Both the position numbers and the translations under genes were made by a program. The notes under the pieces are model-generated. The model was not told the origin of the DNA. It worked only from the letters and a program-made list of their open reading frames with translations, and did no database searches. 64,000 nucleotides of DNA from Euzebya rosea (GTDB lineage: Bacteria > Actinomycetota > Nitriliruptoria > Euzebyales > Euzebyaceae): contig NZ_PGDQ01000006.1 in NCBI RefSeq assembly GCF_003073135.1, forward strand, positions 186,001-250,000, read 5' to 3'. Every line of letters begins with the position of its first letter. Position 1 is the first letter of the stretch. This document shows, piece after piece, positions 42,045 through 61,896 of this stretch.

Positions 42045-42064
42045 ACCAAACGACTGTTTGGTAA
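42045..42064. promoter_or_regulatory. Operator B: palindrome upstream of the flavoprotein-VOC-TetR operon
   Basis: ACCAAAC-GACT-GTTTGGT (42045-42062) has perfect 7-bp arms. Read on the minus strand from 42064 it is TTACCAAACAGTCGTTTG, whose first 14 bases are identical to operator D at 53171. The first gene of the leftward operon starts 48 bp away, at 41997. Confidence 0.75.
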
Positions 42065-42133: not shown

Positions 42134-42151
42134 TTACCAAACGGATGGTAG
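42134..42151. promoter_or_regulatory. Operator C upstream of acyl-CoA synthetase 1
   Basis: TTACC-AAACGGAT-GGTAG keeps the same half-sites and 8-bp spacing as operator D. A TAGAAC hexamer (42149-42154) overlapping it could be a -10 box, with the GTG at 42161 near the expected transcription start. That would imply a leaderless mRNA, and repression by occlusion if the site is bound. Confidence 0.65.
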
Positions 42152-48019: not shown

Positions 48020-49984
48020 ATGCCCGACCTGTTCGACCCGATCACCGTCGGGACCATCACGCTGGACCACCGCATGGTCATGCCGCCCCACTCCGGTGGA
48101 CGCGGCGCCCTGCTGGGCCGCGAGGACCAGTTCGAACGGTTCTGCGCCTACTGGGTCCAGCGGGTCGAGGCCGGCGTGCAGTGGGTCGGGGGCGCGCCGA
48201 CGTTCGTGGCCAACCCGCTCGTCCCGGGCTTCGAACCCACCGGCGTCGGCGCCATGGCCGACGGCACCTTCCGGCAGCGCGGCTACGTCGAACGGCTGGC
48301 CGAGTACTCCCGGCGGCTCCACGACGCGGGCGGCTGGTCCACGGTGCAGATGGTCCTGCAGGGTGGCCTGCCCACCGCCCCCTCACCGACCCTCAGCGGC
48401 TACCGCGACCACCAGGTCCCCCATGCGCTGGACCTCGACGAGGTCGCCTGGCTGGTCCGCGAGTACGGCGAGTCGGCCGCGCTCGCCGCCGACGGCGGGG
48501 CCGACGTGATCGAGCTGCACGCCAACCACGACGACGTGCTCCAGTGGTTCCTCTCCCCACGGACCAACCGGCGCACCGACGGGTACGGCGGGACCCCGGA
48601 GAACCGCCGCCGGCTGCTCCGCGAGGTGGTCGAGCGCATCCGCACACGCATCGACCGGCCCATCACCGTCGGCTTGCGCCTGTGCGTGGACGAGATGATC
48701 GAGGGCGGCTACGGGCTGGAGGAGTGCCAGCGGTTGCTCTCGGCCTTCACCGCCGAGGGCACGGTCGACTACTTCAGCCTGGACGTCGGCAACAACTGGG
48801 GCGCGCCCAGCTACGTCGCGCCCAACACCTACGGGCCGGCGCAGTGGGCGGCCCGCTGCGCCGAGGCGGGCGAGGCCACGGACCTGCCCATCCTCTACGC
48901 GGGCCGAGTGGGCGACGTCGCCACGGCCCGGCAGGTCATCGCCGACGGGCACGCCGACCTCGTCGGGGTCGTGCGGGCGCTCATCGCCGAACCGCGGCTG
49001 CTCGAGCTCGCGAGGGCAGGGGAGGAGGGGGACGCCCGCCCGTGCATCGGTGTCCAGGACTGCCTCAGCCGGCGCGTCGTGGAGCACCTCCCGTTCGCGT
49101 GTGCCGTCAACCCGCACGTCGGCCGCGAGCACGAGGGGCCGCTGCCGCGGGTCGACCGGGCCCGCTCCGTCCTGGTCGTCGGAGGCGGGCCGGCCGGCAC
49201 CGAGGTGGCGGCGCTGGCCACCGAGCGTGGTCACCGGGTGGAGCTGTGGGAGCGCGACGACCACCTCGGCGGCCAGCTCGCGGTGGCGGCACGTGCCCGC
49301 ATGAACCGGCCCTACGCCGACTGGATCGACTGGCAGGTCCGCCGGCTGGAGCGGCTCGACGTGGCGGTTCGGTTCGGGGTCGAGGCGACCGCCGACCTGG
49401 TCCTTGCCCACGACGCCGACGTCGTGGTCGTCGCCACCGGCGCGGTCCCACGACTGCCCGACGCCGAGGGCCTGGACCAGCCGCACGTGCTGACCGCCGT
49501 CGACGTGCTGGGCGGCGGCCGGGGCGCGGCGGTCGGCCGGGTCGAGGTCGGTCATCGGGTCGTCGTGATCGCCGAGGACGACCGGCCGGTGCCGCTCGCC
49601 GTGGCCGACCACCTGGCCGGGGCCGGACACGAGGTCGTCGTCGTGCACCAGTCGCCCGACCCCTCCCCCCTGACCAACAAGTACACGATCGGCGGGATCA
49701 TGGCCCGGCTCGACGCCGAGGGTGGCCGGCTGGTTCCGCACGCCCGGTTGGTCGCCGTCGACGGTCCGACGGTCCACCTCGCCAACGTCTACTCGGGTCG
49801 GCCCTTCGCGCTGGAGGACGTCGACACCGTCGTGCTCGCCTGCGGTGCCGTGCCGTCGGCGTCCCTCCACACCGCCCTGCGTGGGAGCGTCGATGGCCTC
49901 CACCTCCTCGGGGACGCGTTCGCCCCTCGCCGGCTGGTCGCCGCGACCCGTCAGGCCTTCGCGCTCGTGGCCGGACTTGACTGA
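48020..49984 (+). CDS. NADH:flavin oxidoreductase / 2,4-dienoyl-CoA reductase-like flavoprotein
   Basis: This 654-residue protein has an N-terminal Old-Yellow-Enzyme barrel (residues 1-330: FDPITVGTITLDHRMVMPPH, DVIELHANHDDVLQWFLSP, NRRTDGYGGTPENRRR, ILYAGRVGD). A C-terminal FAD/NAD domain follows (SVLVVGGGPAGTEVAALA near 390, LGDAF near the end), as in FadH, trimethylamine dehydrogenase and the bile-acid enzymes BaiCD/BaiH. The iron-sulfur motif normally has four Cys, but here only C342, C348 and C361 remain, with Val345 at the second position. It should reduce a conjugated enoyl-CoA or enone. It is divergent from the carboxylase, under operator G. Confidence 0.88.
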   Translation: MPDLFDPITVGTITLDHRMVMPPHSGGRGALLGREDQFERFCAYWVQRVEAGVQWVGGAPTFVANPLVPGFEPTGVGAMADGTFRQRGYVERLAEYSRRLHDAGGWSTVQMVLQGGLPTAPSPTLSGYRDHQVPHALDLDEVAWLVREYGESAALAADGGADVIELHANHDDVLQWFLSPRTNRRTDGYGGTPENRRRLLREVVERIRTRIDRPITVGLRLCVDEMIEGGYGLEECQRLLSAFTAEGTVDYFSLDVGNNWGAPSYVAPNTYGPAQWAARCAEAGEATDLPILYAGRVGDVATARQVIADGHADLVGVVRALIAEPRLLELARAGEEGDARPCIGVQDCLSRRVVEHLPFACAVNPHVGREHEGPLPRVDRARSVLVVGGGPAGTEVAALATERGHRVELWERDDHLGGQLAVAARARMNRPYADWIDWQVRRLERLDVAVRFGVEATADLVLAHDADVVVVATGAVPRLPDAEGLDQPHVLTAVDVLGGGRGAAVGRVEVGHRVVVIAEDDRPVPLAVADHLAGAGHEVVVVHQSPDPSPLTNKYTIGGIMARLDAEGGRLVPHARLVAVDGPTVHLANVYSGRPFALEDVDTVVLACGAVPSASLHTALRGSVDGLHLLGDAFAPRRLVAATRQAFALVAGLD

Positions 49985-50020: not shown

Positions 50021-50036
50021 TACCTACCGGTAAGTA
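50021..50036. promoter_or_regulatory. Operator F upstream of the thiolase
   Basis: TACCTACCGGTAAGTA is a 16-bp near-perfect palindrome (15 of 16 positions in symmetry if the C/A pair is counted as the only break). It begins 37 bp after the flavoprotein stop and ends 58 bp before the thiolase start. A TAGATA hexamer at 50035 could be a weak -10 element. Confidence 0.68.
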
Positions 50037-50094: not shown

Positions 50095-51300
50095 ATGCGT
50101 GAAGCCGTGATCGTCGACGTCGTCCGGACCCCCATCGGGAAGGGCAAGCCCGGGGGTGCCCTGTCCGGTTGGCATCCCGTCGACCTGCTGGCCGAGGTCC
50201 TGTCCGGCCTCGTCGAGCGCACCGGCATCGACCCGGGCATCGTCGACGACGTCATCACCGGCTGCGTCTCGCAGTCCGGCGAGCAGTCCTTCAACGTCGG
50301 CCGCAACGCCGTCCTCGGCGCCGGCTTCCCCGAGCACGTGCCCGCCACCTCCATCGACCGCCAGTGCGGCTCCTCCCAGCAGGCCCTGCACTTCGCCGCC
50401 CAGGGTGTGCAGTCCGGCGCCTACGACGTCGCCATCGCCTGCGGCGTCGAGGTCATGTCCCGCGTGCCGATGTTCTCCTCCGCGCAGGGCAAGGACTCCT
50501 TCGGCACCAAGGTCGCCGACCGGTACGCCGAGCGCGGCGGGCTGGTCAACCAGGGGATCAGCGCGGAGATGATCGCCGCCAAGTGGGGGCTGACGCGCGC
50601 CGACCTCGACGAGCTCGCGACGGAGTCCCACCGCCGGGCCGACGAGGCGACCAAGGACGGCCGCTTCGAGAACGAGCTGCTGCAGGTGGCCGTCAACCGC
50701 GGTGACGGGCCGACCGGTGAGAAGATGACCGCCGACGAGGGCATCAGGCCCGGCACCAGCCCCGAGTCGCTGGCCGCCCTGAAGCCCGCCTTCCACAGCG
50801 AGGAGCTGGCCGAGGCCTACCCCGACCTCAACTGGGTCGTGCACGCCGGTGGGGCCTCCCAGATCTCCGACGGTGCCGCCGCCGTGCTGGTGATGTCGCG
50901 CGAGAAGGCCGACGAGCTGGGCCTGACCCCGCGCGCCGCTGTCCGCCACGTCGCCGTCGTCGGCGACGACCCCGTGATGATGCTCACGGGCGTCATCCCC
51001 GCCACACAGAAGGTGCTCGAGCGGGCGGGCATGACCATCGACGACATCGACGCGTTCGAGGTCAACGAGGCGTTCGCCCCCGTCGTGCTGGCCTGGCAGG
51101 CCGAGACCGGCGCCGACATGTCGAAGGTCAACATCAACGGCGGCGCCATGGCCAACGGCCACCCGCTGGGCGCGTCCGGTGCCAAGCTGATGACCACCCT
51201 GGTCAACGTGCTGGAGCAGACCGGCGGCCGCTTCGGCCTGCAGACCATGTGCGAGGGTGGCGGCATGGCCAACGCCACGATCATCGAACGGCTGGGCTAG
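50095..51300 (+). CDS. Acetyl-CoA acyltransferase (thiolase)
   Basis: This 401-residue degradative thiolase catalyses the CoA-dependent cleavage of 3-ketoacyl-CoA. The nucleophilic Cys91 is in DRQCGSSQQALHFA, His356 in ANGHPLGASGAKL and the second Cys386 in TMCEGGGMANATI. Length and the NEAFAPV motif are typical. AGGAG at 50084 precedes the ATG. It follows operator F and is 74 nt upstream of a second acyl-CoA synthetase, forming a short rightward unit. The family includes steroid side-chain thiolases such as FadA5, but specificity cannot be read from the sequence. Confidence 0.92.
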   Translation: MREAVIVDVVRTPIGKGKPGGALSGWHPVDLLAEVLSGLVERTGIDPGIVDDVITGCVSQSGEQSFNVGRNAVLGAGFPEHVPATSIDRQCGSSQQALHFAAQGVQSGAYDVAIACGVEVMSRVPMFSSAQGKDSFGTKVADRYAERGGLVNQGISAEMIAAKWGLTRADLDELATESHRRADEATKDGRFENELLQVAVNRGDGPTGEKMTADEGIRPGTSPESLAALKPAFHSEELAEAYPDLNWVVHAGGASQISDGAAAVLVMSREKADELGLTPRAAVRHVAVVGDDPVMMLTGVIPATQKVLERAGMTIDDIDAFEVNEAFAPVVLAWQAETGADMSKVNINGGAMANGHPLGASGAKLMTTLVNVLEQTGGRFGLQTMCEGGGMANATIIERLG

Positions 51301-51374: not shown

Positions 51375-53018
51375 GTGGAGTACCGCGAGGTGTGCACCGG
51401 CGGCGACCTGATCATCAGGGGCGCCGCCCTCGATCCCGATCGGACGGCGATCGCCTTCCCCGACGACCGCCGGACCTACCAGCAGCTGCTGGACCGGGCG
51501 GTCGCCGCCGCCCGATCGCTGCACGGCCTGGGCGTGCGGGCCGGCGACCGGGTGGGCGTGCTGATGCCCAACTCCCTTGAGTACGTGGAGGTGTGGTTCG
51601 GCACCCTGCTGCTCGGGGCGGTCCTGGTCCCCATCAACAGCCGCTTCCGGTCCCGTGAGCTGCGCCACGTCGTGCCCGACGCCAACGTTGCCGTCCTCGT
51701 GGTGGCCGACGAACCCGACGTCATCGCCTTCACCGAGCGGGTCACCCACGCCTTCCCCGCCCTCGCCGAGCAGGCCGGCGCCGCCGACGGCGCGCCGCTG
51801 TCCCTGGAGCAGGCGCCCGACCTGCGGCACGTCGTCGACCTCACCTCCACCGGCGCCACCGGATTCCTGCCGGCCAAGCGCTTCGAGGCCGCCGGCACCG
51901 ACGTGGCCGAGGCCACCGTCGAGCACGAGGCCGCGCGCGTGGCGCTGCGCGATCCGGCCACGATCTTCTACACCTCCGGGACCACGTCGCTGCCCAAGGG
52001 GTGTGTCCTCAGCCACGAGGCGATGGTCCGCCAGGGGCAGGAGACCGCCGCCCGGATGGACTTCCGCGCCGGTGACGTGCTGTTCAGCCCGCTCCCGATG
52101 TTCCACAGCGCCTGCTCCCAGCCGCTGTTCGCGATGCTCTGGGCGGTCGGCACCTACTGCAACATGCAGGCCTTCGACGCCGCGACGGGCCTGCGGATGA
52201 TCGCCGAGGAGCAGGCGACGGTGCTCTACACCGCGTTCCCGCCGATCACCGACGGGCTGGTGGACCATCCCGACTTCGATCCCGAGCCGTTCCGGCGGGT
52301 CCGCAGCGTGTTCACCGTCGCGCCGCCGACCCAGCTCCGCGAGCTGGAGGGCAAGCTGCCGGGGACCAAGGTAGTGACCGCGTTCGGCATGACCGAGGTG
52401 GCCGGCTCCATCGCCATGGCCGACCCCCGCGACCCGATGGAACGACGCATGCGGCCCGGCCGTCCGCTGCGCGGTGCCGAGGTCGAGATCCGGACCATCG
52501 GCGACAACCGTCCGGCCGCCCCGGGGGTTGAGGGCGAGATCGTCTGCCGCGGCACGACGCTGTTCTCGCACTACCACGGCCTGGAGGAGAAGACCGCCGA
52601 GGTCATGGACGACGAGGGCTGGTTCCACACCGGCGACCTCGGCGTCATCACCGAGGACGGGCTGCTGGAGTTCCACGGCCGGCTCAAGGACATGCTCAAG
52701 ATCGGCGGCGAGAACGTCGCGGCCATCGAGATCGAGTCCCACCTGATCGCCCACCCCGACGTGCTGATGGCGGCGGTCGTGGGGCTGCCCGACGACCGGC
52801 TGGGCGAGGTCGCAGTGGCCTACCTCGAGGTCCGACCGGGCGCTGCGCTGGCCGAGTCCGACATCATCGACTGGTGCCGGGACGAGATCGCCAGCTTCAA
52901 GATCCCCCGGCACGTCGCCTTCGTCGACGAGTGGCCCATGTCGGCCACGAAGATCCGCAAGGTCGACCTGCGCGACCGAGCCGCCGAGGACTTCGCCGAC
53001 CAGCCGCCGCTGTACTGA
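51375..53018 (+). CDS. Acyl-CoA synthetase (AMP-forming) 2
   Basis: This 547-residue ANL ligase has the core motif TIFYTSGTTSLPKGCVLSH, then PLPMFHSA, VVTAFGMTEVAGS (A5), EGWFHTGDLGVITEDGLLEF (A7), KDMLKIGGENVAAIEIE (A8) and a C-terminal SATKIRKVDLRD segment that supplies the catalytic Lys. Starting at GTG 51375 gives the usual N-terminus; the longer frame from 51249 overlaps the thiolase. It probably activates an acid substrate or an intermediate of the same pathway. Its stop codon lies inside the first copy of a five-copy 19-bp repeat. Confidence 0.92.
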   Translation: MEYREVCTGGDLIIRGAALDPDRTAIAFPDDRRTYQQLLDRAVAAARSLHGLGVRAGDRVGVLMPNSLEYVEVWFGTLLLGAVLVPINSRFRSRELRHVVPDANVAVLVVADEPDVIAFTERVTHAFPALAEQAGAADGAPLSLEQAPDLRHVVDLTSTGATGFLPAKRFEAAGTDVAEATVEHEAARVALRDPATIFYTSGTTSLPKGCVLSHEAMVRQGQETAARMDFRAGDVLFSPLPMFHSACSQPLFAMLWAVGTYCNMQAFDAATGLRMIAEEQATVLYTAFPPITDGLVDHPDFDPEPFRRVRSVFTVAPPTQLRELEGKLPGTKVVTAFGMTEVAGSIAMADPRDPMERRMRPGRPLRGAEVEIRTIGDNRPAAPGVEGEIVCRGTTLFSHYHGLEEKTAEVMDDEGWFHTGDLGVITEDGLLEFHGRLKDMLKIGGENVAAIEIESHLIAHPDVLMAAVVGLPDDRLGEVAVAYLEVRPGAALAESDIIDWCRDEIASFKIPRHVAFVDEWPMSATKIRKVDLRDRAAEDFADQPPLY

Positions 53019-53106
53019 CAGCGGTCGTCCGTACTGACAGCGGTCGTCCGTACTGACAGCGGTCGTCCGTACTGACAGCAGTCGTCCGTACTGACAGTGG
53101 TCGCCG
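53012..53106. repeat. Five tandem copies of a 19-bp unit
   Basis: The unit GTACTGACAGCGGTCGTCC is repeated from 53012. Copies 1-3 are identical, copy 4 has one change (CAG for CGG) and copy 5 is more diverged. The first copy supplies the TGA stop of the acyl-CoA synthetase gene. There are no spacers, so it is not a CRISPR array. It ends 32 bp before the -35 box of the next promoter. Confidence 0.9.
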
Positions 53107-53170: not shown

Positions 53171-53188
53171 TTACCAAACAGTCGGTAG
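53171..53188. promoter_or_regulatory. Operator D upstream of the SDR/FrhB operon
   Basis: TTACC-AAACAGTC-GGTAG has the half-sites and spacing of operator C. Its first 14 bases are identical to operator B read on the other strand. The SDR start is 36 bp downstream. Confidence 0.72.
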
Positions 53189-53223: not shown

Positions 53224-54036
53224 ATGTCGTCGTCCGCCTACTTCCAGGGCCCCTGGGCCCCTGCCGCCGATCGCGCGCTCGTCACCGGCGGCAGCTCGGG
53301 CATCGGACGCGACATCGCGCTGATGCTGGCGGGGGCGGGGGTCGAGGTGTACGTCGTCGGCCGTCGGATGGAGAAGCTGCAGGCCGTGGTCGAGGAGGCC
53401 GAGGGGTCCGTCACCCCGCTGGCCGCTGACATCCGTGACGCCGATGCCGTCGACGCCGCCTTCACCGCCGCGGAGGAGGCGGGCGGTCCGGTGCCGCTGC
53501 TGGTCAACGCCGCCAGCGGGGCCTTCCTCGCCGCCGCCGAGGACATCAGCCCGGGCGGGTTCGCCGCCGTCGTCGGCTCCAGCCTGAACGGCCCCTTCCA
53601 CGTGCTGCGCCGCTGGGCCCAGCCGCTGCTGGCCGCCGGGACCGCCGGCGCCGCGATGATGGTCTCCAGCGCCCTGGCCGAACGCGAGGTCCCCGGTGCC
53701 GCACACTCGAGCGCCGCCAAGGCGGGCCTCGAAGCGCTGATCCGCTCCCTCGCCGTGGAGTGGGGGCCCCGCGGCCTGCGCATCAACTCCCTCGCCCCGG
53801 GGGCGTTCTCCACCGAGGGCGCGGACGCCGGCATGTGGAGCTTCGGGCCGGTCCACGACGCGGCGCTCGGCAACATCCCCCTCGGCCGGTTCGGCGCGTC
53901 CGACGAGCTGCTCGGCCCCGCCGCGTTCCTGCTCAGCCGCGCGGCCGGATACGTGACCGGCGCAACCGTCGTGGTAGACGGAGGCTGGCATCTTTCTCCC
54001 CACCCCTTCGGGTCGGTCTTCCCGACCCGTGGCTGA
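53224..54036 (+). CDS. Short-chain dehydrogenase of the 2,4-dienoyl-CoA reductase type
   Basis: This 270-residue SDR has the cofactor motif RALVTGGSSGIGRDIALML and NAASGAFLA. The usual active-site Tyr-x3-Lys is replaced by the series AHSSAAKAGLEALIRSL, and the next segment is AVEWGPRGLRINSLAPGAFS. Loss of the Tyr at that position together with the EWGP-x-G-x-R-x-NSLAPG block is characteristic of peroxisomal/mitochondrial-type 2,4-dienoyl-CoA reductases, which use NADPH. It is the first gene of a three-gene unit with the FrhB-like protein (20-nt gap) and another SDR. I infer reduction of a conjugated dienoyl-CoA. Confidence 0.82.
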   Translation: MSSSAYFQGPWAPAADRALVTGGSSGIGRDIALMLAGAGVEVYVVGRRMEKLQAVVEEAEGSVTPLAADIRDADAVDAAFTAAEEAGGPVPLLVNAASGAFLAAAEDISPGGFAAVVGSSLNGPFHVLRRWAQPLLAAGTAGAAMMVSSALAEREVPGAAHSSAAKAGLEALIRSLAVEWGPRGLRINSLAPGAFSTEGADAGMWSFGPVHDAALGNIPLGRFGASDELLGPAAFLLSRAAGYVTGATVVVDGGWHLSPHPFGSVFPTRG

Positions 54037-54056
54037 TCGACGACCGGAGACTTCTC

Positions 54057-55178
54057 ATGGGTGACGTGCACTGGCGAGAGCTGTACCGCGAGGTGGTGGA
54101 ACCCGGGCTGTGCACCGGCTGCGCCGCCTGCGTGATGGTCTGCCCCCGCGACGTACTGGGCTACACCGACGAGTACTGGCCGGTCCAGATCGGTGAGGGG
54201 ATGGACAAGGACCAGTGCGTCATCGGTGACCGCGGGTGTGACATCTGCACCCGGGCGTGTCCCCGGTTCCGCAACTGGGAGACCGACATCGACGAGGTGC
54301 TGTTCGGCCAGCCGCGCGAGCCCGACCAGGTCTATGGCCACGTGCGCTCGATCCTGCTGACCCGTGCGACCGACAAGGCCGTGCACGAGCAGGGCCAGGA
54401 CGGCGGGCTGGTGTCCACCCTCCTCATCTGGGGACTGGAGAACGAGATGATCGACGGCGCGCTGACGTCGGCGATCACCGAGACGCGCGGGCCGTTCGAC
54501 TCCGAGCCCGCCCTCGTGACCGACCGCGAGGGGGTGCTGGCCACCGCCGGGTCGCGCTACACCTACTCCGCCAACCCGCTGGCGATGAAGCAGGCCGACG
54601 AGCAGAAGCTCAAGCAGATCGCGCTGGTCGGCATGTCCTGCCAGGCGTCGATCAACGGCACCGTCGAGACCTACGGGGTCAACAAGTACAAGCGCAAGAT
54701 CGCCCTGACGATCGGCCTGCTGTGCTCCAAGACCTTCACCTACGAGGGGCAGAAGCTGGTCCTCGCCAACCACGACATCGACATCAACGACGTCGTGAAG
54801 GTCAACATCAAGGGCCGCTACATGGTGTGGCTGCGTGATGGCTCCTACCACGAGCTGCCGCTGAAGGAGTTCCACCCCTACACCCGCGAGGGCTGCAAGA
54901 AGTGCCCGGACTTCGCGGCCGAGCACGCCGACATCTCCACCGGCGGGATCGGCGCGGACGACAACTGGACGCTGACGCTGATCCGGACCGCCCGTGGTGA
55001 GGAGTGGATGAAGGGTGTCATCGACGCCGGCCTGATCGAGGCCCGCCCCGGCGAGGAGGACCCGGTCGCCATGAACCTGCTGACCAAGCTGTCGACGGTG
55101 TCCCGCAAGCGCTGGCCCATGGACGACCTGGTGGGCGACGCCCGCCGTCCCGGCCTGCTGCCGATCGTCTCGACGTGA
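54057..55178 (+). CDS. FrhB-like (coenzyme F420 hydrogenase/dehydrogenase beta family) Fe-S flavoprotein
   Basis: This 373-residue protein has an N-terminal ferredoxin-like pair of motifs, CTGCAACVMVCP (near residue 19) and CDICTRACP (near 62). An FrhB core follows with EQGQDGGLVSTLLIWGLE, ALVGMSCQASI, IGLLCSKTFTYEG and YTREGCKKCPDFAAEHADIS, then GIGADDNWTLTLIRT. The family couples F420H2 or ferredoxin to substrates; relatives include F420 hydrogenase beta subunits and the plant 7-hydroxymethyl chlorophyll reductase. Here it sits between two SDR genes, so it probably performs or powers a reduction in the pathway. Its TGA overlaps the next GTG. Confidence 0.88.
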   Translation: MGDVHWRELYREVVEPGLCTGCAACVMVCPRDVLGYTDEYWPVQIGEGMDKDQCVIGDRGCDICTRACPRFRNWETDIDEVLFGQPREPDQVYGHVRSILLTRATDKAVHEQGQDGGLVSTLLIWGLENEMIDGALTSAITETRGPFDSEPALVTDREGVLATAGSRYTYSANPLAMKQADEQKLKQIALVGMSCQASINGTVETYGVNKYKRKIALTIGLLCSKTFTYEGQKLVLANHDIDINDVVKVNIKGRYMVWLRDGSYHELPLKEFHPYTREGCKKCPDFAAEHADISTGGIGADDNWTLTLIRTARGEEWMKGVIDAGLIEARPGEEDPVAMNLLTKLSTVSRKRWPMDDLVGDARRPGLLPIVST

Positions 55179-55960
55179 GCGAGGGGTTGTCCGTGCCCGG
55201 CGGGCTGTTCGACGTCGCCGGGCGGCACGTGCTGATCACCGGCGGCTCGCGGGGGATCGGCGAGATGATCGCCCGCGGGTTCCATGCGGCGGGCGCCACG
55301 GTGTACCTGACCGCACGCGGTGCGGATGCCTGCGCGGCGGTGGCCGACGACCTCGGGGAGCGAGCCGTCGCCCTGCCTGCCGACGTCTCGACGCCCGCGG
55401 GTGTGCGGGCGCTGGTGGACGAGCTGTCGACCCACACCGACCGGCTGGACGTCCTGGTCAACAACGCCGGCGCGACCTGGGGAGCCGACATCGAGGACTA
55501 CCCCGACGAGGCGTGGGACAAGGTGCTCGGCCTGAACCTGAAGGCGCCGTTCGCCCTGACCGTCGCCTGCCTGGACCTGCTGCGTGCGGCGGCGACCGCC
55601 GACCACCCCTCACGCGTGATCAACATCGGGTCCGTCGACGGCATGCGCGTGCCGATCTGGGAGTCCTACGCCTACTCCGCCTCCAAGGCCGGCGTGCACC
55701 AGCTGACCCGCGTCGTCGGCGCCCGCCTGGCCCGCGAGCACATCACCGTCAACGCCATCGCCCCCGGCCTCTTCCCCTCGAAGATGACCGCCTTCGCGCT
55801 GGAGGCCGACGAGGAGGGGCTGGAGGAGTCCGTGCCGCTGGGCCGCATCGGCCGCCCCGACGACGCCGCCGGCGCCGCCATCTTCCTGTCCTCTCGCGCC
55901 GCCTCCTGGATCACCGGCGCCATCCTCCCCGTCGACGGCGGCATGGTCACCCTCCAGTAG
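55175..55960 (+). CDS. Short-chain dehydrogenase/reductase (third gene of the D operon)
   Basis: This 261-residue classical SDR has the cofactor motif HVLITGGSRGIGEMIARGF, NNAGATWGA, the Ser of INIGSVDG, and the Tyr and Lys of ESYAYSASKAGVHQLTR, ending GAILPVDGGMVTL. It would oxidise or reduce a hydroxyl/keto group with NAD(P). GTG 55175 overlaps the FrhB stop (GTGA), which fixes the start and implies translational coupling. The sequence resembles gluconate 5-dehydrogenase and FabG-like SDRs. As the last gene of the unit it may reduce or oxidise the 3-hydroxyacyl-CoA-type intermediate. Confidence 0.88.
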   Translation: MSEGLSVPGGLFDVAGRHVLITGGSRGIGEMIARGFHAAGATVYLTARGADACAAVADDLGERAVALPADVSTPAGVRALVDELSTHTDRLDVLVNNAGATWGADIEDYPDEAWDKVLGLNLKAPFALTVACLDLLRAAATADHPSRVINIGSVDGMRVPIWESYAYSASKAGVHQLTRVVGARLAREHITVNAIAPGLFPSKMTAFALEADEEGLEESVPLGRIGRPDDAAGAAIFLSSRAASWITGAILPVDGGMVTLQ

Positions 55961-56051
55961 CCCCGCCGAACCGGCAGCTGGACCCTGGCCGGGGCGGGCA
56001 GCTCGGCCCCGCCGAACCGGCAGCTGGGCCCTGGCCGGGCCGGCAGCTCGG
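55961..56051. repeat. Two-copy direct repeat of about 46 bp
   Basis: Starting right after the SDR stop, CCCCGCCGAACCGGCAGCTG begins both copies (55961 and 56007), and both end CAGCTCGG; lengths are 46 and 45 bp. The unit contains the CAGCTG palindrome and could form a GC-rich hairpin (CCGGCAGCTG with CTGGCCGG). A role in transcription termination is possible. Confidence 0.75.
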
Positions 56052-56166
56052 CCCTGACGGATCTTGACCCAAGTGAAGGGGGAGCGGAGGGGACCTGGGT
56101 ACCAATCCGTCAGCGCGGGGACCCGTCCGACGGGTTCGCCGCATCGAGGTGGGTCAACATCCGTCA

Positions 56167-56274
56167 CAGGGTGGGGATGAATCCGTCAGGGGGACGCGGG
56201 CCCAGGGTGGGGATGAATCCGTCAGGGGGACGCGGGCCCAGGGTGGGGATGAATCCGTCAGGGGGAGGTGGGCC
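56167..56274. repeat. Three tandem copies of a 36-bp unit
   Basis: The unit begins CAGGGTGGGGATGAATCCGT, continues CAGGGGGACG and ends CGGGCC. Copies 1 and 2 are identical; copy 3 differs near its end. Because 36 is a multiple of three, frames through it encode a repeated peptide, which I treat as incidental. Each copy carries one TGACGGAT complement. Confidence 0.9.
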
Positions 56275-59045: not shown

Positions 59046-59075
59046 TTGTCTACTTACCGTTCGGTAGACTATTAT
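59046..59075 (+). promoter_or_regulatory. Promoter of the Rieske-LLM-P450 operon
   Basis: TTGTCT (59046-59051), an 18-bp spacer and TATTAT (59070-59075) form a plausible sigma-70-type promoter. Operator E lies in the spacer, an arrangement typical of repression by steric exclusion. The GTG of the Rieske gene is 38 nt downstream of the -10 box. Confidence 0.6.
59051..59070. promoter_or_regulatory. Operator E between the SDR and Rieske ferredoxin genes
   Basis: The 20-bp stretch TACTTACCGTTCGGTAGACT contains the dyad TACCG-TT-CGGTA (59055-59066) and the ACTTACC half-site seen at operators F, G and H. It sits in the spacer of the rightward promoter and could control both divergent units. Confidence 0.7.
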
Positions 59076-59113: not shown

Positions 59114-59440
59114 GTGGACGAGTCGAGCGCACATCGGGTGGCCGGGGCTGCGTCCCTGGCGCCCGGCGAGGTCCGGCTGCTCGAGGTCGGGGGCCAGCGT
59201 GTCTGCCTGGCCCGCACCGACGACGACGAGCTGTTCGCGGTCGACGACATCTGCAGCCACGAGGAGGAGTCGCTCAGCGAGGGCTGGCTGGATGGCAGCT
59301 GCATCGAGTGTCCCGCTCACAACTCCGTGTTCGACCTCCGCACCGGCGAGGCGCTGACCCTCCCCGCGACCGAGCCCGTCCGCACCTACCCCGTCACCAC
59401 CGACGGCGACGACGTCATCGTCACCGTCCCCACGGCCTGA
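59114..59440 (+). CDS. Rieske-type [2Fe-2S] ferredoxin
   Basis: This 108-residue protein has the Rieske cluster motif: Cys47-x-His49 (ICSHEEESLSEGW) and Cys66-x2-His69 (IECPAHNSVF), with an extra Cys63 just before. The fold (LLEVGGQRVCLARTDDDELF, then FDLRTGEALTLPATEPVRTY) fits small Rieske ferredoxins such as BphF-like carriers. The start is GTG 59114 after a GGGAGG site. It is the first gene of a unit with the LLM, P450 and TIM-barrel genes, so it is the best candidate electron donor to the P450, recharged by the reductase encoded on the opposite strand. Confidence 0.92.
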   Translation: MDESSAHRVAGAASLAPGEVRLLEVGGQRVCLARTDDDELFAVDDICSHEEESLSEGWLDGSCIECPAHNSVFDLRTGEALTLPATEPVRTYPVTTDGDDVIVTVPTA

Positions 59441-59478: not shown

Positions 59479-60594
59479 ATGGACATCCAGCTCGGCGCAC
59501 CCGGCGCCATCACCCCGCCGATCGACCGTGGCATCGCCGCCGGGGTGAAGATGGAGCAGGCCGGCTACGACGGGGTCTGGTGGCCCGACCACCTGATGGG
59601 CTGGCACCCCGACAGCATGTGGAACACCGACTACACGCCGCTGGCGAACTACCAGCAGTCCAGCCACGTGTACGCCGACCCGTTCGCCATGATGTCGGCC
59701 GTCGGTGCCCAGACCGAGACGATCAAGCTCGGCACCTGCGTGACCGACCTGCTGCGCCGTCACCCGGCCTCGGTCGCCCAGACCATGCTGACGCTGGACC
59801 ACATGACCAAGGGCCGCGCCATCCTCGGCGTCGGCTCGGGAGAGCAGCTCAACATCGAGCCCTACGGGATGGAGTGGGACAAGCCGGTCGGCAAGCTCGC
59901 CGAGGGCCTCGAGGTCATCAAGCTGCTGTTCAACGCCGGCGCGGAGAAGGTCGACTTCGAGGGCACCCACTTCCGGCTGAAGGACGCAGTGATGGGACTG
60001 GACCCCTACGGCGACACCCCACCGGAGATCTGGCTGGCCGCCCACGGCCCCCGCATGCTCGGCCTGACGGGGCAGTACGCCGACGGCTGGCTGCCCACCA
60101 AGATGTCACCGGAGGCCTACCGCTCCTCCCTCGACACCATCCTGAAGGCCGGCAAGGACGCCGGGCGGGACATGGAGGGCTTCACGCCCGGCATGCTCGG
60201 CTACTTCCTGATCGGCCCCGACGAGGAGTCCGTCCAGCGGCTGCTGGCCTCGGAGATGGTCCGCATGCTCTGCATCCTCATGCCCAACTGGGTGTACGAA
60301 TCCATGGGGCTCGAACCGCCGCTCGGCGGCAGCGGTGGCTTCCACGACTTCATCCCCACCCGGGTGCCGCGTGAGGAGGTCGACCGGATCCTGACCAGGA
60401 TCCCGCCGCAGGTGTCGTCGCACTACGCCTTCGCCGGCACGCCCGAGCAGCTGGCCGAGGAGATCGAGGCCTACCACGACGCCGGCCTGCGCCACCTCGT
60501 CATGTGGAACATCACCGGCCTCGGTGACCCCGAGCTCGCCCGCTACAGCTTCAAGGGCATGGACGAGCTGAAGGCCATGGTCAGGTCAGCCTGA
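59479..60594 (+). CDS. LLM-class (luciferase-like) flavin or F420-dependent oxidoreductase
   Basis: This 371-residue TIM-barrel oxidoreductase belongs to the bacterial luciferase/F420 family. Elements include YDGVWWPDHLMGWHPDSMW, KLGTCVTDLLRRHPASVAQT, GRAILGVGSGEQLNIEPYGM, PPEIWLAAHGPRMLGLTGQY (residues about 180-200) and PEQLAEEIEAYHDAGLRHLV. The lack of a short-chain NADPH motif and the similarity to phthiodiolone ketoreductase/Mer-like proteins favour F420 over FMN, but this is an inference. It lies 38 nt after the Rieske gene and 42 nt before the P450. It would reduce an enone or ketone, or oxidise an alcohol, in the pathway. Confidence 0.86.
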   Translation: MDIQLGAPGAITPPIDRGIAAGVKMEQAGYDGVWWPDHLMGWHPDSMWNTDYTPLANYQQSSHVYADPFAMMSAVGAQTETIKLGTCVTDLLRRHPASVAQTMLTLDHMTKGRAILGVGSGEQLNIEPYGMEWDKPVGKLAEGLEVIKLLFNAGAEKVDFEGTHFRLKDAVMGLDPYGDTPPEIWLAAHGPRMLGLTGQYADGWLPTKMSPEAYRSSLDTILKAGKDAGRDMEGFTPGMLGYFLIGPDEESVQRLLASEMVRMLCILMPNWVYESMGLEPPLGGSGGFHDFIPTRVPREEVDRILTRIPPQVSSHYAFAGTPEQLAEEIEAYHDAGLRHLVMWNITGLGDPELARYSFKGMDELKAMVRSA

Positions 60595-60636: not shown

Positions 60637-61896
60637 ATGACCACGACCGCGCTCGACGACGTCGACCTGCTGTCCCCGGCAGCGACCGAGGACCCCTACG
60701 CCACGATGCAGGCGCTGCGCGATGCCGCGCCTGCCGTGTGGTCGGACCGTCATCAGGCCTGGGTGGTCGCCCGCTACCGCGACGTCGAGTCGGCGCTGAC
60801 CGACCGGCGGCTGTCCTCCGACCGGGTCGCGCCGGTGCTGGCCCGGGCCCGCGCGGAGGACGCCCCGGGTGAGGAGTCCTCGGCCTCGCGGATCCTCGAG
60901 ATCCTGAAGTCGTGGATGGTCGTGTCGGACCCACCGGCCCACACCCGCCTGCGCAAGCTGGCTGCCGGCGCCTTCAAGGGCCAGCGGATCAGCCTCATGG
61001 GCGAGGCCATCCAGGCACGCGTCGACCAGATCCTCGACGACTTCATCGCCTCGGGTGAAGGCGACCTGATCCATCACGTCGCCTACCCCCTGCCCGCCGC
61101 CGTCATCGCGGAGATGATGGGTGTGCCGCTGGAGGACCAGGACCGCTTCCGGGCATGGTCCGACGAGCTCGCCCTGGTGGCGTTCGGGGCCGGTGGGGCC
61201 GCCCGTGGCGACCGCCACGAACGGGCGCTGCGGGGCATCGAGGAGATGTTCGCCTACCTCCAGGGGCTGGTCGACGCCGCACGGGCCGAGCCGGGCGAGG
61301 ACATGATCAGCGCCCTGGCCGCCCCCGTGGAGGACGGCGACCGGCTTGACGACCAGGAGCTGCTGAGCATGCTCGCGCTGCTGCTGTTCGCCGGCCACGA
61401 GACCACGATCAACGCCACCGCCAACGGCGTCCTGGCCCTGCTGCGCAACCCCGACCAGATGCAGGCGATGCGCGAGGACCCCGACATGGCCGCCAAGGCG
61501 GTGGAGGAGCTGCTGCGCATCGACGGGCCGATCAAGGTGCTGGTCCGCTGGGTGCTGGAGGACATCGACATCGACGGGGTCACCGTCCCGGCCGGTGACC
61601 GGATCTTCCTCGCGCTCGCTGGGGCCAACCACGACCCCGACTACTTCGACGACGCCGCGTCGCTGGACATCACCCGCCACCCCAACCGCCACGTCGCGTT
61701 CGGCCGGGGCATCCACGCGTGCATCGGTGCGCAGCTGGCCCGGCTGGAGATGCGCCACATGCTGCAGAGCATCGTCGAGCGGTTGCCCGGCCTGCGGCTG
61801 GCCGACGACGCCACCCTGGAGTACGTCCCGAGCCTGGCGTCCCGCGCGCTGAAGGAGCTGCCGGTCGTGCACGACGCCGGGCCTTCCACCCGGTGA
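60637..61896 (+). CDS. Cytochrome P450
   Basis: This 419-residue soluble bacterial P450 has the I-helix oxygen-activation motif LLFAGHETTINA (near residue 250), the K-helix ExxR in AVEELLRIDGPIK (near 290) and the haem-binding motif FGRGIHACIGAQLARLE with the ligand Cys362. It needs two electrons from a ferredoxin, and the same operon encodes a Rieske ferredoxin while the divergent operon encodes a reductase. The stop overlaps the next gene's GTG (GTGA). It probably hydroxylates the hydrophobic substrate of the pathway; the substrate is unknown. Confidence 0.95.
   Translation: MTTTALDDVDLLSPAATEDPYATMQALRDAAPAVWSDRHQAWVVARYRDVESALTDRRLSSDRVAPVLARARAEDAPGEESSASRILEILKSWMVVSDPPAHTRLRKLAAGAFKGQRISLMGEAIQARVDQILDDFIASGEGDLIHHVAYPLPAAVIAEMMGVPLEDQDRFRAWSDELALVAFGAGGAARGDRHERALRGIEEMFAYLQGLVDAARAEPGEDMISALAAPVEDGDRLDDQELLSMLALLLFAGHETTINATANGVLALLRNPDQMQAMREDPDMAAKAVEELLRIDGPIKVLVRWVLEDIDIDGVTVPAGDRIFLALAGANHDPDYFDDAASLDITRHPNRHVAFGRGIHACIGAQLARLEMRHMLQSIVERLPGLRLADDATLEYVPSLASRALKELPVVHDAGPSTR

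Follow-up and report, generated by a model that had tools for sequence, protein, structure and literature searches.

What does an Fe–S flavoprotein of the F420 hydrogenase beta (FrhB) type do between two genes for short-chain dehydrogenases/reductases (SDRs) in the actinobacterium Euzebya rosea? The three genes lie in a stretch of 64,000 nucleotides, hereafter the window, from a genome of 5.5 Mb. Their order had led the earlier note to propose that the flavoprotein takes part in the reduction of a CoA-bound intermediate, with F420H2 or ferredoxin as the electron donor. Here we ask what the proteins themselves, the F420 biosynthesis genes of the genome, the relatives of the locus and its putative regulation say about that function.

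The three-gene locus

The FrhB-like flavoprotein gene does stand between two SDR genes, all three on the same strand and together occupying positions 53224-55960 exactly:

53012..53103, no strand: 19-bp tandem repeat, 4.8 copies GTACTGACAGCGGTCGTCC, between FadD and SDR1
53224..54036, plus strand: SDR1, 270 aa, ATG start; 2,4-dienoyl-CoA-reductase-like short-chain reductase
54057..55178, plus strand: ferredoxin-domain FrhB (FDRC) F420-oxidoreductase-like protein, 373 aa, ATG start
55175..55960, plus strand: SDR2, 261 aa, GTG start; classical short-chain dehydrogenase with a YSASK motif

The GTG start codon of SDR2 shares bases with the TGA stop codon of the FrhB-like gene, giving a GTGA overlap. 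Three intergenic tandem-repeat arrays bracket the operon, at 53012-53103 (19 bp, 4.8 copies), 55960-56054 (46 bp, 2.1 copies) and 56167-56274 (36 bp, 3 copies); at the equivalent place in a second genome of the genus, G022, the 19-bp array is absent.

A domain scan finds SDR folds in both neighbours of the FrhB-like gene, and their description as a dienoyl-CoA-reductase-like and a classical SDR is confirmed, the former by matches of SDR1 to the PDB entries 3imf and 1w6u (human DECR1, 5e-37) and the latter by the YSASK motif of SDR2. Judged by sequence, SDR1 is related to the 2,4-dienoyl-CoA reductases, as its match to DECR1 indicates, and since its score of 182.3 bits against NCBIfam NF005811 is under the cut-off of 318, we did not assign it to their family; in place of the classical YxxxK motif of SDRs, it has HSSAAK. 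The hydride donor of SDRs is NAD(P)H, and these enzymes have no flavin or Fe–S centre that could accept electrons from the FrhB-like protein.

Domains and fold of the FrhB-like protein

The two ferredoxin-type cysteine motifs and the F420 hydrogenase beta fold noticed earlier are recovered in the domain matches, in 12 conserved cysteines and in the model fold. As in FDRC proteins, the C-terminal family domain PF04432 (FrhB_FdhB_C) is matched at 2.7e-35 (121.9 bits, cut-off 23.3) and the N-terminal one, PF04422 (FrhB_FdhB_N), at 1.2e-18 (67.4 bits, cut-off 22), and the scan places a Fer4 match at the N terminus; such scores are well outside the range of chance. The protein is laid out as follows:

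Residues 1-84: 2x[4Fe-4S] domain
Residues 85-351: F420-reductase domain with FAD and [4Fe-4S]
Residues 352-373: C-terminal tail

The cysteines of the ferredoxin domain are C19/22/25/29 and C54/61/64/68, and those of the core cluster, C195/C223/C280/C283, align with the cysteines of FrhB, in keeping with the FDRC family; all 12 are invariant among 38 homologues, with identity down to 39%, and so is QDGG at the FAD helix. The loop through which FrhB contacts F420, S209-V210 (PMC3591093), aligns with G297-I298 of the window's protein, where G297 is invariant.

Among solved structures, the nearest relatives by sequence are methanogen FrhB (1.4e-47) and the chains 8rja_E and 8riu_B, whereas the plant chlorophyll reductase HCAR is matched at only 9e-5; with a profile built from the 38 homologues, 8riu_B turns into the best match (1.7e-74). 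In 8riu and 8rja alike, the F420-reductase module belongs to a complex whose reduction of F420 has been measured (PMC11493965). The AlphaFold model (pLDDT 85.5, pTM 0.87) has the fold of the FDRC family, with Z scores of 31-42 overall: its best counterpart is again 8riu_B, which it matches from residue 1 to residue 373 (Z 42.5 over 349 aligned residues), followed by 8rja_E (Z 36.5), Fsr and FrhB. The HCAR structure 5dqr reaches Z 29.1, and the PLP-enzyme folds that were also listed, with Z near 5, were taken as background.

The protein belongs to the FrhB-type (FDRC) flavoproteins and carries a 2x[4Fe-4S] ferredoxin domain at its N terminus. Against the equivalog profiles of named members it scores under the cut-offs, with 197.5 bits against 331.5 for FrhB (TIGR03289), and 137 against 475 and 132.9 against 444 for FpoF/FqoF (NF040616 and NF006808). 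A second PF04432 protein of the genome (L002, C6:704-1192) represents a much more distant type of the FrhB family; the frame beside it, judged by eye, is polysaccharide pyruvyl transferase-like.

F420 biosynthesis and co-occurrence

The search for F420 biosynthesis genes suggested by the earlier note found fbiA, fbiB and fbiC, clustered on the window's contig (L114, C6:108-116 kb) about 125 kb from the FrhB-like gene, and the genome is thus able to make F420. An FDRC flavoprotein with a ferredoxin domain in a genome with fbi genes makes a role with F420 likely, and we think it highly probable that the protein handles F420 in one way or another. The genome also encodes Fno (G000:C4:86953-87585), as do most Nitriliruptoria genomes, so F420 reduction need not depend on the FrhB-like protein. 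The idea that the latter generally substitutes for Fno is unsupported: among Nitriliruptoria genomes at least 90% complete, no Fno over the cut-off was found in 3 of the 20 that have FrhB and in 5 of the 14 that lack it, one of the three having split Fno fragments and detection being imperfect in fragmented genomes. The search for Fgd in the class gave no match at 1e-60, a level at which no control matched either.

Of 66 Nitriliruptoria genomes, 31 give a match at E <= 1e-30, which shows 71-98% identity in 30 of them and is a divergent relative (40%) in G003. A broader sample of Actinomycetota holds a relative at 1e-50 or better in 102 of 396 genomes, with identities of 39-62% outside the Nitriliruptoria, and the close named relatives belong to the Nitriliruptorales and other Actinomycetota. 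The F420 ligase (PF01996) is found in 95 of these 102 genomes vs. 130 of the 294 without the FrhB-like protein (odds ratio 17, p = 3e-20); counted per genome and ignoring relatedness, the comparison gives too small a p value and a clear direction. Five of the seven positive genomes in which the ligase went undetected are at most 90% complete. In one genome, G046, the FrhB-like gene is present twice, as near-identical copies whose contexts differ (L052, G046:C1:131482; L053, 4947946).

Gene order and phylogeny

The same gene order had been expected in other genomes, and this holds in part. Among the Nitriliruptoria loci examined with their flanks, the order SDR1–FrhB–SDR2 and the surrounding cluster recur in G022 and G023, which with the window's genome (G000) make up three of the four genomes of the genus, and are absent beyond the genus. 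With the order confined to three genomes of one genus, we reject a three-gene module conserved across genera; the arrangement is a genus-level feature.

In some of the other genomes, the FrhB-like gene is found beside or near the genes for F420 biosynthesis. In G024, of the same genus, it adjoins fbiC, with fbiA–fbiB about 5 kb off; in the streamlined genomes G031 and G034 (1.7 Mb), frhB and fbiC share a GTGA overlap and fbiA–fbiB is divergent; and in G032, matches to CofD and the F420 ligase lie just past the FrhB-like gene. No other context evidence speaks as strongly for an F420 function as this linkage to fbiC in other Nitriliruptoria. The other recurrent neighbours identified in the Nitriliruptoria and other actinomycetotes are housekeeping genes (polyphosphate kinase; His_Phos/DUF3090), which in other classes gave no functional clue. 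A gene for polyphosphate kinase (PPK1) is located downstream of frhB at about 19 loci, both in Nitriliruptoria and in other Actinomycetota, including L054, L048, L069, L070, L075, L077 and L080. The conserved neighbours that were identified at 61 loci include no recurrent family of hydrogenase, CODH or other partner subunits, and this absence would fit a soluble carrier such as ferredoxin.

In the tree, the window's copy groups with family f5, sister to those of G059/G060 (support 99/98) and apart from that of the same-genus G024. Since a topology test did not reject f1 as one clade (p-AU 0.09), this placement is only suggestive of a horizontal arrival of the operon copy.

Operator-like sites and a putative regulon

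A palindromic TetR-type motif, TACCNACNNGTNGGTA, occurs four times in the window with up to 2 mismatches, vs. a mean of 0.69 in shuffles, and all four sites are upstream of a gene, namely of FadD2, thiolase–FadD, SDR1–FrhB–SDR2 and Rieske–LLM–P450:

39359..40006, minus strand: TetR-family regulator (TetR_N, TetR_C_24), candidate for the operator
42135..42150, plus strand: operator-like site TACCAAACGGATGGTA, just upstream of the FadD2 gene (42161), in a promoter region divergent with a flavin oxidoreductase gene
50021..50036, plus strand: operator-like site TACCTACCGGTAAGTA, upstream of the thiolase; equivalents in G022 (L039 14197) and G023 (L040 2649)
50095..51300, plus strand: acetyl-CoA acyltransferase (thiolase), same putative regulon
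51375..53018, plus strand: FadD-type acyl-CoA ligase, upstream of SDR1
53172..53187, plus strand: TetR-type operator-like palindrome TACCAAACAGTCGGTA, 36 bp ahead of the ATG of SDR1; the equivalent place in G022 has the identical sequence
59051..59066, plus strand: operator-like site TACTTACCGTTCGGTA, upstream of Rieske–LLM–P450; equivalents in G022 (L039 5353) and G023 (L040 10347)
59114..59440, plus strand: Rieske [2Fe-2S] ferredoxin
59479..60594, plus strand: LLM (luciferase-like) oxidoreductase, candidate F420 partner enzyme, same putative regulon
60637..61896, plus strand: cytochrome P450, in a predicted operon with the LLM gene

As the motif was derived from these same sites, their enrichment is partly circular; this does not apply to their conservation in two further genomes, seen at the thiolase, SDR1 and Rieske promoters in G022 and at the thiolase and Rieske promoters in G023. 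A related operator-like site lies at 42048-42063. In G023, the stop codon of FadD overlaps the start codon of SDR1 (ATGA), so the genes from the thiolase to SDR2 may there form a single operon.

The top solved relatives of the LLM enzyme, Mer, Adf, fHMAD and Fgd, are F420-dependent. Because operator-like sites precede both operons, the window's genus appears to control the FrhB-like flavoprotein and a substrate enzyme, both of F420 type, jointly. Within the same stretch, a flavoprotein of the OYE/2,4-dienoyl-CoA-reductase type (48020-49984) has CIGVQDC at its [4Fe-4S] motif, a change found also in G023; the motif of FadH-type enzymes is usually CIGCNxxC, and the protein may therefore have lost its cluster.

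Proposed function and alternatives

The likeness to known systems is greatest for CODH zeta (8riu_B) and FwdI (8rja_E) of Ca. Ethanoperedens thermophilum, which have the same domain order and a similar length; CODH zeta also has a C-terminal extension, used there for dimerisation. These are subunits of the CO dehydrogenase and formylmethanofuran dehydrogenase of an anaerobic, ethane-oxidising archaeon, whereas the window's protein, about 28% identical to them, has no such partner genes adjoining and belongs to an actinobacterial host and an oxygenase-bearing gene cluster. FrhB of the F420-reducing [NiFe]-hydrogenase has in common with it the core fold, the four cluster cysteines, QDGG and the region of the F420 loop, but works in FrhABG and lacks the N-terminal ferredoxin domain, one being supplied by FrhG. 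The N-terminal half of Fsr combines the same ferredoxin and F420H2-oxidase domains (Z 34.2), although the window's protein is without the sulfite-reductase domain. The known bacterial F420 reductases, Fno and Fgd, exchange electrons with F420, as the window's protein is proposed to do, yet their folds are unrelated and their partner is NADPH or G6P.

On balance, we favour the view that the FrhB-like protein is a stand-alone F420 oxidoreductase with a low-potential Fe–S partner, recruited into an F420-using catabolic regulon, a view that draws on its sequence, model fold and conserved cluster ligands, the fbi genes, the co-occurrence, the linkage to fbiC and the conserved operator-like sites. 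By homology, F420 or F420H2 would exchange a hydride with FAD in the C-terminal domain, and single electrons would pass from FAD by way of the core [4Fe-4S] cluster to the two N-terminal clusters; these would exchange them, possibly in both directions, with a partner of low potential, for which a soluble ferredoxin is the likeliest candidate. Whether ferredoxin specifically is the partner we regard as an even call. In the window's genus, frhB would have been recruited into a TetR-controlled catabolic regulon of acyl-CoA type that encodes an LLM enzyme of the F420-dependent type, and its product would hold the F420 pool in the redox state needed by that enzyme, without itself reducing a CoA thioester. 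The binding of F420, the partner, the direction of electron flow and the physiological role are what we infer here.

The electrons may have a different destination. FpoF/FqoF, the F420H2-oxidising head of archaeal Fpo/Fqo, is likewise a fusion of ferredoxin and FrhB, with the same domain order, and the window's genome has a complex I cluster that lacks NuoEFG (L108, G000:C13:163901-183800, where E, F and G are missing from the interval between D and H); the canonical nuo genes are about 25 kb away. F420H2 from the LLM enzyme could be oxidised by the FrhB-like protein and the electrons fed into the EFG-less, 11-subunit complex I and the respiratory chain. A lack of linkage is known for fpoF of Methanosarcina acetivorans too, and an Fpo' without FpoF exists (PMC12918732); the truncated nuo cluster of Actinomarinales has also been proposed to use F420 (PMC7771536). 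Against such a role, none of the loci read shows a linkage of the FrhB-like gene with nuo genes, its product scores 137 with a cut-off of 475 for FpoF, and there is no association at the class level, the EFG-less NuoD being found in 16 of 20 Nitriliruptoria genomes with FrhB and 11 of 14 without (at least 90% complete, p = 1); we consider it the main alternative, but rather unlikely. The apparent case of G032 as a genome with the EFG-less complex I alone was withdrawn, because the contig ends within its canonical nuo cluster.

The same fold also serves an enzyme that does not use F420, the 7-hydroxymethyl chlorophyll a reductase HCAR, and given its structural similarity and the presence of non-F420 members in the family, the protein could be a ferredoxin-dependent reductase of some small metabolite. 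In sequence, however, HCAR (9e-5) is far more remote from the window's protein than are FrhB (1.4e-47) and the F420 reductases of CODH and Fwd, and with the linkage to and co-occurrence with F420 biosynthesis, we find this improbable. We give still less credence to the reduction of a CoA-bound intermediate by the FrhB-like protein and the two SDRs, driven by F420H2 or ferredoxin. One operon with SDR1 and SDR2 (and in G023 with FadD as well) and the DECR-like nature of SDR1 speak for this very doubtful proposal, but the gene order is limited to three genomes of one genus, and elsewhere the orthologue adjoins fbiC or other unrelated genes. As the SDRs depend on NAD(P)H and offer no cofactor for electrons from the FrhB-like protein, and as the latter aligns end to end with F420 reductases, its F420-reductase and ferredoxin domains explaining the whole fold with no further domain for a substrate, direct reduction of a CoA substrate is unsupported. 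The link that remains between FrhB and the SDRs is metabolic or regulatory coupling via a common operon and operator, in one genus.

Implications

A 2021 review of F420 (PMC8498797) gives the FrhB/FDRC family for Euryarchaeota only; as F420 reductases of bacteria it chiefly names Fno, with NADPH, and Fgd, with G6P. We found no earlier description of an actinomycetote FDRC member in the literature, subscription journals being mostly beyond reach. About one quarter of the sampled actinomycetote genomes encode a ferredoxin-domain FDRC protein. Its presence goes with F420 biosynthesis, and one genus has it in a putative catabolic regulon. We tentatively suggest, at slightly short of even confidence, that it represents a phylum-wide bacterial branch of F420 reductases that connects the F420 pool of Actinomycetota directly to ferredoxin or to an EFG-less complex I, as a third route next to those through Fno and Fgd, and that at least one lineage has put in a catabolic regulon. 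If true, this would add a bacterial link of F420 to ferredoxin or respiration.
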